Shown: positions 42,200 to 44,546 of the stretch, one piece after another
How positions within the stretch are numbered: position 1 is the stretch's first letter
How the letters are laid out: each line of letters begins with the position of its first letter
Assembly (NCBI RefSeq): GCF_004153545.1
Contig: NZ_SDVA01000009.1
Coordinates: forward strand, 62,001-126,000
Direction: 5' to 3'
Source of the DNA: Serinicoccus sediminis
GTDB taxonomy: Bacteria > Actinomycetota > Actinomycetes > Actinomycetales > Dermatophilaceae
Length of the DNA stretch: 64,000 nucleotides
Position numbers and translations under genes: made by a program
Notes under the pieces: model-generated
The model's input: only the letters and a program-made list of their open reading frames with translations
Told to the model about the DNA's origin: nothing
Database searches by the model: none

Positions 42200-42943
42200 T
42201 CAGCCCTGCGGCATCAGCACGCCGTCGATGAGGTAGACGGTGGCGTTGGCGGTCTGCACACCGCCGCAGATCACCGAGGCGTCGTTGACCATGAGCTCGT
42301 CACCGGAGCCGGTGACCTCGAGGGTCTCGCCCTGCACGGTGGTCTGCTCGCCCATCACCTCGTCCGGGGTCATCTGCCCGGGCACGACGTGGTAGGTCAG
42401 GATCGACTGCAGCAGGTCGGCGTCCTCCTGCAGCGTGGCCATTGTCTCCTGGTCGATGGCCTCGAAGGCCTCGTCGACCGGCGCGAAGACGGTGAACTCG
42501 TCGCCGTTCAGGGTGTCGACCAGGTCGACGTCCGGGTTGACCTCGCCGGAGACGGCGGCGGTCAGCTGGGTGAGCAGCGGGTTGTTACCGGCGGCCACCG
42601 CGACCGGGTCCTGGGCCATGCCCTCGACCGAGCCGTCGCCGTCCGGCACCTGCTCCGCGTAGTCGGCGCAGCCCGGGCCGACGAGGTTGGCGGCGGGGTC
42701 CATCTGGCCGCCGGCCATGTCCTCCTCGGTCTGCATGTCGTCGTCGGCCATGTCGTCCTCGGACTCCATGTCGTCGTCGGCCATGTCGTCCTCGGACTCC
42801 ATGTCCTCGGAGGCCATGTCCTCGCTGGACTGCTCGGTGGAGCCGCCCTCGGCGGCCATGTCGTCGCCCTCGCCGCCGCACGCGGACAGCGCCAGCGCGG
42901 AGGCCATCGAGACGGCCAGGATTCCCTTGGAGATACGCATCAT
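42200..42943 (-). CDS. Fasciclin-domain lipoprotein with acidic Met repeat
   Basis: 247 residues. Signal peptide and lipobox L-S-A-C place the lipidated Cys at 22. Residues 41-82 are an acidic, Met-rich repeat: methionines at 43, 48, 54, 59, 65, 70, 76 and 81, spaced 5, 6, 5, 6, an 11-residue (33-base) period, each preceded by Asp except the last. A FAS1 domain follows ([11 protein letters not shown] to Y-L-I-D-G-V-L), as in mycobacterial MPT83/MPT70. It lies 28 bases after the molybdoenzyme stop, so it is probably co-transcribed. AAAGGA precedes a double ATG. Confidence 0.9.
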
Positions 42944-42971
42944 GCATTCCTTTCTGATGGGGTCGGACGGC

Positions 42972-44495
42972 TCAGGAGACGGTGACCGTCACGCTGTGCC
43001 ACCCGGTGGACCCGTCAGGAGCGATGGGCTCCCGCCGGGAGGTCTGGGTCTGGCCCGCGCGGTCGGTCGCGCGGACCTCGAGCCGGTGCGAACCGGGCTC
43101 CGCCGACCAGGTCCAGCGCCAGGCGCGCCAGGTCTGGTCGGAGTCCTCGACGCCGAGCTCGGCGTCCTGCCACTCCCCCTCGTCGGCGCGCACCTGCACG
43201 CGCTCGATGCCCACGGTCTGCGCCCAGGCGACACCGGCGACGGTGACCTCGCCGGCCTCCAGCTGGGCGAACGAGCCGGGTACGTCGATCCGGGAGGACA
43301 GCTTGATGGGGGCCTTCGCGGCATACCCGCGGTCGGTCCAGTAGGCGGTGAAGTCGGCGAACCGGGTGACCTCCAGCTCGGTCAGCCACTTCGTCGCCGA
43401 CACGTAGCCGTAGAGGCCGGGGGTGACCATGCGCAGGGGGTACCCGTGCTCGGCCGGGAGGGGCCCGCCGTTCATGCCGACGGCGAGGAGTGCCTCGCGG
43501 TCGTCGGTGAGCACGTCCAGGGGGGTCCCGGCGGTGTAGCCGTCGGTGCTCACCGAGCGCACGGCGTCGGCGCCGGGCTGCACCCCGGCCTCGGCGAGCA
43601 GCTCGCGGACCGGGATGCCGATCCAGGTCGCGGTGCCCAGCAGGTCCCCCCCGACCTGGTTGCTCACGCAGGTGAGGGTGATGCGGCGCTCGACCAGCTC
43701 GCGGGACAGCAGGTCGCCCATGGTCAGCTCGAGCGGCTCGTCGACCATCCCGGTGATCCGCAGCACGTGCGAGCCGGCGGCCACCGCGGGCACCTGCAGC
43801 GCGGTGTCGACCCGGTAGAAGTCCTGGGTGGGAGTGACGTGTGCGGTCAGCCCGTCGACGTCGAAGCTCACCCCGTCGGGCACCGGCTCGGCCGGCATCG
43901 CGGGAGCGGGCAGGTCCAGCCCGTCCCCGGGCGTCGAGCCCCCGAGGGTGCGCGTGGCCCCTCCCGCCGCGCCCAGCGCCGCCACGCTGGAGGTGGCGAG
44001 CAGGAACCGGCGACGGTCCAGCCCCGCCCCCTCGCCCGTGCGCACGAGGAGTGACGAGAGGAGCCATGCCAGCCCGCCGATCCCGACGACCAGCATCCCC
44101 GCAACGGATGCCGCGACGGCCGGGGCTCCCCCGCCCTGGGCGGGGTCGAGGACCATGGCCAGGGCCGCGATCGCGACCAGGAGGGTGATACCGCCCAGCG
44201 CGACGGCACGGTGGCGGGCCCCGACCCAGCCGAGCGCCAGGAGCAGGACCACGAGCGTGAGCACGACGCCACCCAGCAGGACTGCCTTGTCGGCCTGTCC
44301 GAAGGTCTCGATGGCCCACTCCTTGACCGGGCGGGGGGTGAGGTCGACCGCTCGGTTGCCGACGGCCACGACCGGGCCGGTGACGTCCAGGAGCTGCGCA
44401 AGACCCTCTCCGGCGAGCACCCCGGCACCGCCGGCGAGCAGGCCGGAGAAGGCTCCGGCCACCCGCTGGCCCCGTGAAGGAGATGTCGTCGTCAT
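42972..44495 (-). CDS. Membrane-anchored sulfite-oxidase-family molybdoenzyme
   Basis: 507 residues. Four hydrophobic segments (to about 152) precede D-R-R-R-F-L-L-A near 165, a Tat-like motif, then the Moco domain with the molybdenum-ligating Cys in L-T-C-V-S-N near 277 and a C-terminal Ig-like dimerisation domain. The family includes sulfite oxidase and the periplasmic methionine-sulfoxide reductase MsrP; which activity applies is unknown. The membrane segments fused in front are unlike MsrP, whose partner MsrQ is separate. A CRP-type palindrome lies 36-51 bases upstream of the ATG. Confidence 0.9.
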
Positions 44496-44530
44496 GCCCA
44501 GGATTCGGCGCCCACCCCGGGTACGGATGG

Positions 44531-44546
44531 TGTGACCTAGGTCACA
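44531..44546. promoter_or_regulatory. Perfect CRP/GlxR-type palindrome
   Basis: TGTGACCTAGGTCACA is a perfect 16-base palindrome that fits the CRP/GlxR consensus TGTGA-N6-TCACA. Its centre is 43.5 bases from the ATG of the molybdoenzyme gene, so with a start site just before the ATG it would sit near -41.5, an activator position. It also lies immediately after the GNAT stop. No CRP-family regulator is encoded in the window. Confidence 0.82.

Follow-up and report, generated by a model that had tools for sequence, protein, structure and literature searches.

The closest functional model for the locus described here is provided by proteobacterial systems in which an ECF sigma factor and its anti-sigma factor control a Met-repeat protein of the MXKDX (five-residue) type, together with MsrPQ, for resistance to HOCl (PMC8315932). 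The Azospira version comprises SigF/NrsF, MrpX and YedYZ (Melnyk et al., 2015, as cited in PMC8315932), and the Brucella version BcrS/AbcS and BcrXQP; induction by HOCl is reported for these systems (PMC8315932). A second related arrangement is the mpt83-sigK-rskA cassette of mycobacteria, where genes of the mpt83 type are known SigK targets (PMC7509140; for the mycobacterial SigK regulon, Veyrier et al., 2008, as cited there). SigK sites are reported to be highly conserved in Actinobacteria, one of them being located upstream of mpt83, and the signal sensed by SigK/RskA was stated to be unknown in 2020 (PMC7509140). As to the enzymes, a review of the sulfite oxidase (SO) family sets an uncharacterised group beside MsrP and the sulfite-oxidising groups.

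A molybdoenzyme gene precedes the gene for a fasciclin lipoprotein

We analysed a stretch of 64,000 nucleotides from Serinicoccus sediminis (hereafter, the window). A reading of the letters alone (the sequence-only reading) had noticed an SO-family enzyme gene 28 bases upstream of a gene for a surface lipoprotein with a Met-rich arm. Open reading frames and Pfam matches confirm this observation, with the enzyme gene first:

42972-44495, minus strand: gene for a membrane-bound molybdoenzyme of the sulfite oxidase family, 507 aa (ORF, Pfam, predicted structure)
42200-42943, minus strand: gene for a fasciclin lipoprotein of the MPT70/MPT83 family, 247 aa (ORF, Pfam, alignment)

The intergenic gap of 28 nt contains, as read from the sequence, a AGAAAGGA-like ribosome site. 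The assignment of the enzyme to the SO superfamily also stands (Pfam Oxidored_molyb, 7.7e-42). The same genome encodes two more SO-superfamily enzymes (L002 and L004), a full paralogue (G000:C36:138378-139922; 51% identity) without an adjoining fasciclin gene and a more distant one (G000:C86:37932-38378), 13 kb from the sigK-rskA pair (see below).

The lipoprotein carries an acidic arm with regularly spaced methionines

The lipoprotein matches Pfam Fasciclin (8.8e-28); among solved structures the best match is to MPT70 of M. tuberculosis (1nyo; E 1.8e-56, residues 86-246). From its N-terminal extension and lipobox Cys it is assigned to the MPT70/MPT83 group of FAS1 lipoproteins. Its features are:

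42878-42943, minus strand: signal peptide of the lipoprotein, lipobox LSAC, lipid anchor at Cys22 (sequence, alignment)
42680-42877, minus strand: acidic Met arm, residues 23-88 (66 residues), predicted disordered (sequence, AlphaFold2)
42701-42817, minus strand: eight Met, at residues 43, 48, 54, 59, 65, 70, 76 and 81, spaced 5, 6, 5, 6, 5, 6, 5 (sequence)
42712-42831, minus strand: 33-bp (11-codon) tandem repeat, 3.6 copies, source of the rhythm (DNA repeat analysis)
42209-42532, minus strand: FAS1 (fasciclin) domain, residues 138-245 (Pfam, structure match, AlphaFold2)

In the AlphaFold2 model the arm has no secondary structure and a pLDDT of 51-59; most of the protein outside it scores over 90. 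The lipobox, C92, M109 and C226 are invariant in the lipoprotein alignment. Met109 (42617-42619) belongs to a motif G-x-GS-x-x-GM outside the variable arm and is found in 37 of 37 aligned lipoproteins. Distant FAS1 relatives without a recognised lipobox arm occur in Psychromonas, Halomonas and Marinomonas (L281-L283).

Nine Met residues lie between Cys22 and the FAS1 region, and eight of them follow the strict 5/6 rhythm first remarked on from the sequence. Such spacing is unlikely to arise by chance (these Met residues, placed at random, give seven consecutive 5/6 gaps with P about 1e-5), but its strictness comes in part from the 33-bp repeat. The closest homologue, the orthologue in S. chungangensis (the nearest named genome, with a FAS1 region 96% identical to that of the window's lipoprotein), has an arm one repeat unit shorter. 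The 33-bp repeat and this difference of one unit show the strictness to be partly the product of recent duplication, in the DNA, of a unit that contains Met.

The molybdoenzyme is closer to sulfite dehydrogenases than to MsrP

Alignment of 121 homologues and a confident structure prediction (pLDDT 90.6) divide the enzyme as follows:

44055-44474, minus strand: membrane domain of four helices, residues 8-147; the loop that follows TM1 is conserved (alignment, predicted structure)
43944-44021, minus strand: internal twin-arginine motif (LDRRRF; invariant R161 and R162) and fifth helix (alignment, predicted structure)
43341-43799, minus strand: Moco-binding domain PF00174, residues 233-385 (Pfam, alignment)
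42975-43304, minus strand: Ig-like C-terminal domain (SO dimerisation type), at residues 398-507, which MsrP does not have (predicted structure)

The closest structures are those of chicken SO and SorA (VIA Z about 31-32 over 298-303 residues, about 32 for chicken SO), vs a Z of 21 over 200 residues for E. coli MsrP (1xdq). MsrP shares the Moco fold but, besides being without the C-terminal domain, is the weaker match in both sequence and structure, and on the MsrP model NF003767 the enzyme scores 42.8 bits, below the cut-off of 207. In view of the SO fold, the C-terminal domain and the Z scores, the kinship with MsrP that the first reading had brought in is not supported in that form. That reading had also put a four-segment membrane domain in the place of MsrQ. 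Four TM helices are indeed fused to the enzyme, but the fifth helix, with its Tat motif, is present besides, and no conserved His was found in TM2-4 across the 121 homologues (no column above 15% His, with one exception in the region, loop position 95, at 19/121), so that the replacement of MsrQ by this domain is not supported by haem ligands. An MsrP with a built-in MsrQ is rejected in that form, since the C-terminal domain is of the SO type, the MsrP score is weak and no haem His is present. Neither an electron donor nor a haem site could be recognised in the alignment of the 121 homologues, and the four-helix domain was given no name by the curated families or by the fold search, which covered it together with the rest of the enzyme.

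With SorA and chicken SO, to which it is about 28% identical, the enzyme shares the Moco and C-terminal domains, the Mo-ligand Cys (Cys276 in TCVSNxVGG, invariant across the 121 homologues) and an Arg, R228, that aligns with R55 of SorA. However, the sulfite-site Arg present in SorA and SO at Mo-Cys+5 is replaced (V281 in the window's enzyme), Val being found there in 117/121 homologues and Arg never among the residues listed; and the position of Tyr236/322 is occupied by Trp in most homologues, the window's enzyme having Tyr (Y391). L361 was considered as a substitute for the active-site Tyr; aligned to SorA and to the SorA mutant Y236F, however, the enzyme has Y391 at that position, which rules L361 out. 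The enzyme also falls below the curated cut-offs for sulfite dehydrogenases (SorA, 113.6 bits vs 600; SoxC, 109.2 vs 420; SorT, 71.1 vs 570). Since the Arg at Mo-Cys+5 is changed to Val in nearly all homologues, ordinary sulfite oxidase activity is unlikely.

The pair is conserved and preceded by a SigK-type promoter

Co-occurrence of the enzyme with the fasciclin lipoprotein, a check proposed along with the original observation, was surveyed in two genome sets, 150 from the bacterial family and 297 from the class. The family set has the enzyme in 121/150 genomes and a FAS1 match in 96/150; among the strong FAS1 matches, 76/104 lie directly downstream of an enzyme homologue on the same strand. 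At the level of the class, 54 of the 143 FAS1 matches listed adjoin the enzyme, in ten families, 52 of them on the same strand. The pair is thus conserved. Unpaired enzyme homologues are also common in the 150 family genomes. The distances between enzymes track those between FAS1 proteins (Mantel r 0.81 for 60 loci, reached in 0/2000 permutations), a correlation to which shared species history also contributes.

Upstream of the enzyme gene three elements are found:

44531-44546, no strand assigned: perfect palindrome TGTGACCTAGGTCACA, Crp/GlxR-like, abutting the −35 element (motif search)
44525-44530, minus strand: SigK-type −35 element CCATCC (motif search, homologue comparison)
44503-44508, minus strand: SigK-type −10 element CCGAAT, 16 nt from the −35 element (motif search, homologue comparison)

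CCATCC-N16-CCGAAT (44530-44503) is the sole match in the 64 kb of the window. In the whole genome the motif has 10 matches, vs 3 for a reversed control, and of the 10 no other than the window site ends in CGAAT. Because the −10 element stops 7 nt before the ATG, the enzyme transcript is probably leaderless. The strict motif was found before 46 of 82 non-redundant paired enzyme genes (0.1 expected) and, with at most one mismatch in the −35 element, before 75 of the 82 (2.0 expected); the corresponding counts for unpaired homologues are 0/22 and 3/22. The motif is also present before mpt83-type genes, at named mycobacterial loci and at other loci without the enzyme. We take CCATCC and CCGAAT to represent the SigK consensus, an identification that rests on the co-occurrence of the motif with the paired genes and with the mpt83-type genes. 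Pairing of the two genes and their putative control by SigK are, in our judgement, very probable.

The palindrome TGTGACCTAGGTCACA is the only match in the 64 kb to the Crp/GlxR-like consensus, which we take to be TGTGANNTANNTCACA, where none is expected, and a similar palindrome is found in four related genomes (L138, L149, L150 and L151); it suggests a second control of the operon, of the cAMP/Crp type.

Downstream of the pair, most loci of the family encode an ECF sigma factor together with an anti-sigma factor of the RskA type (sigK-rskA). In the window's genus sigK-rskA is absent from the locus and found elsewhere in the genome (in trans); the RskA encoded in trans in the window's genome matches Pfam RskA_C (4.4e-20). 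The SigK homologues of the genus (L284-L295) are 60-70% identical to the family type in several genomes and about 50% in others, and one sigK copy (L284, in G128) has an in-frame TAG.

These arrangements bear on the idea that the arm is a sensor, whose oxidation would alter how the lipoprotein contacts RskA or the enzyme and so report envelope oxidation to SigK, in place of a bulk sink. The lipoprotein gene makes up a conserved cassette with sigK and rskA, for which the RskA signal is stated to be unknown (PMC7509140), and with about 2-9 Met per arm the capacity of a sink would be small. However, sigK-rskA is unlinked in the window's genus, and we regard a sensor as improbable.

Methionine is enriched and non-randomly spaced in arms across the family

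In 134 unique arms Met averages 6.5%, vs 0.7% in a control set of 50 lipoproteins of other kinds, drawn from these loci and genomes, an enrichment of about 9-fold over other lipoprotein linkers; at least two Met are present in 78% of the arms vs 2% of the controls. Spacings between Met residues peak at 5-6 residues family-wide, and the excess persists, in statistics that rest on related sequences, in 57 representative arms below 80% identity (34 observed vs 12.2 ± 3.2 expected), in 22 arms after clustering at 70% (12 vs 4.1 ± 1.8) and without the window's genus (z 6.0). In the redundancy-reduced arms, 1-3 residue spacings fall below expectation. A 5-6 effect is absent for Asp, Glu, Gly, Ala and Ser and slight for Thr; because Pro is also partly spaced in this way (z 4.7 vs 6.8 for Met), part of the rhythm may represent low-complexity or micro-repeat structure. 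That the rhythm is unique to the window is ruled out by the family-wide 5-6 spacing, its strict alternation there being the 33-bp repeat.

Conservation of Met in homologous lipoproteins, on which the first interpretation had been made to depend, holds as a family-wide enrichment but not site by site, since 13/134 arms (about 10%) are free of Met; the nearest relatives of the enzyme outside the genus have arms with 0-2 Met. Most arms of the family are rich in Ser/Thr rather than acidic. Acidic, Met-rich arms are also found in Demequina (L224) and Nesterenkonia (L241), and from their sequences such arms look to be of repeated origin. A dependence of the Met arm on an adjacent enzyme is ruled out: where the surrounding 6 kb hold no enzyme gene the arms have 5.4% Met, little less than the 6.7% of arms that have one beside them. 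Because Met in the arms is far above that of other lipoproteins, an oxidation sink is a reasonable role for the arm.

Two other roles were weighed against these figures. The substrate of the enzyme could be sulfite or a small compound, oxygenated at S or N, in the envelope, with FAS1 as an adhesion or scaffold partner and the arm as a flexible, redox-inert stalk. The closest structures to the enzyme, the sulfite dehydrogenases SorA and SO, would agree with this, as would the many unpaired homologues, which imply that the enzyme can work without the lipoprotein, and an arm composition that otherwise varies freely between Ser/Thr-rich and acidic. Yet the roughly 9-fold enrichment and a non-random spacing that survives removal of redundancy are hard to explain for an inert stalk, and sulfite as the substrate is opposed by the loss of the SO active-site Arg at Cys+5; we consider this explanation rather unlikely, if a serious one.

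The second builds on the metal-binding arm suggested by the sequence-only reading: the acidic Met arm would bind or hand over a metal (copper), the pair serving homeostasis of copper or of another metal. Met-rich, acidic extracellular segments are a known way of binding copper, and this is what speaks for it. The Met motifs that bind Cu(I) are, however, spaced as MxM, MxxM or MxxxM, and since the 1-3 residue spacings are depleted in the arms, 5-6 being preferred, a copper role is disfavoured. Most arms of the family are also Ser/Thr-rich rather than acidic and the commonest neighbour clusters included none recognised as copper-handling, which leaves a copper arm quite improbable.

DipZ adjoins the lipoprotein gene only where the enzyme is absent

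DipZ, a protein with a DsbD-type membrane domain and thioredoxin domains, is encoded next to the lipoprotein in 13 of 76 named loci, from all of which the molybdoenzyme is absent (L213, L217, L223, L224, L226, L227, L240, L242-L246 and L250), and at 0/35 enzyme loci (Fisher p 1.3e-4, with kinship ignored); the exclusion follows lineages. Two electron routes for extracytoplasmic Met-sulfoxide repair are known in other bacteria, a molybdoenzyme or a thiol relay. The alternation of DipZ and enzyme fits a role in Met-sulfoxide repair without proving it.

A candidate envelope redox operon

By analogy with the Azospira and Brucella systems, we tentatively propose, at somewhat below an even chance, that the two genes form an envelope redox operon under SigK, in which the arm is a sink for Met oxidation and the enzyme resets it. 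On the outer side of the membrane the lipoprotein would hang from its lipid anchor by the disordered Met arm; oxidants in the envelope (HOCl, chloramines, H2O2) would turn arm Met residues into sulfoxides, making the arm a sacrificial, reversible sink; and the molybdoenzyme would reduce S-oxides, those of the arm included, with electrons drawn from the membrane. An oxidant would be the signal on which SigK switches on both genes, and where the molybdoenzyme is missing the thiol relay of DipZ might serve instead. Against this proposal stand the closer affinity of the enzyme to sulfite dehydrogenases than to MsrP and the independence of arm Met from the presence of the enzyme. Of the initial interpretation of enzyme and arm, the pairing and the Met enrichment are supported, and the link to MsrP and the replacement of MsrQ are not. 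The conserved molybdoenzyme partner, the shared SigK promoter and the family-wide Met arm nonetheless make the sink a concrete, testable hypothesis.

We know of no established function for MPT70 or MPT83. A wider extension, which we think unlikely, is that the SigK/RskA regulon with its MPT83/MPT70-type lipoproteins would be the actinobacterial envelope defence against Met oxidation: arms with Met at a pitch of 5-6 residues would act as sink or sensor, to be recharged by the molybdoenzyme in most lineages and, where that is lacking, by the DipZ thiol relay, mycobacteria included. If true, it would give the first biochemical role for a major family of tuberculosis antigens.

Comparison with known systems

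The five TM helices, the twin-arginine motif before TM5 and the Moco domain on the outside are also features of Sco3746, a dual Sec/Tat Moco protein whose homologues have TM helices with conserved His residues predicted to bind two haems (PMC5449189), whereas the 121 homologues studied here have no such His pattern. With the mycobacterial mpt83-sigK-rskA cassette the locus shares the lipoprotein family, sigK-rskA and conserved SigK sites (PMC7509140), but the mycobacterial loci have DipZ and no enzyme nearby. Our literature search, by which Veyrier et al. (2008) was not covered, found no paper linking a molybdoenzyme to this cassette, nor any link between fasciclin and Met-sulfoxide or between MPT83 and HOCl.

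The MrpX and BcrX peptides resemble the window's arm in Met spacing only; no model of the MXKDX repeat family was among the NCBIfam matches at E up to 0.1, a search in which short repeats score poorly. In contrast to the Azospira and Brucella systems, here the Met segment forms the arm of a FAS1 lipoprotein of the MPT83 type; the enzyme is of the SO type, with a C-terminal domain and a fused five-helix anchor without haem His, and there is no MsrQ; the sigma factor is SigK; and the role in HOCl resistance shown there is a proposal here. What is alike is an ECF sigma factor with its anti-sigma factor, and a small extracytoplasmic Met-repeat protein beside an SO-superfamily molybdoenzyme. With these systems as the closest functional model, the logic of an ECF sigma factor governing a Met sink is proposed here, a logic that would be that of MrpX/YedY and BcrX/BcrQP carried out with unrelated parts. 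Our best reading is that the pair is an actinobacterial analogue, under SigK, of the MrpX/MsrP type of defence against Met oxidation, with a chemistry that is inferred; if so, bacteria would have invented the combination of ECF sigma factor, Met sink and molybdoenzyme twice, from unrelated proteins.
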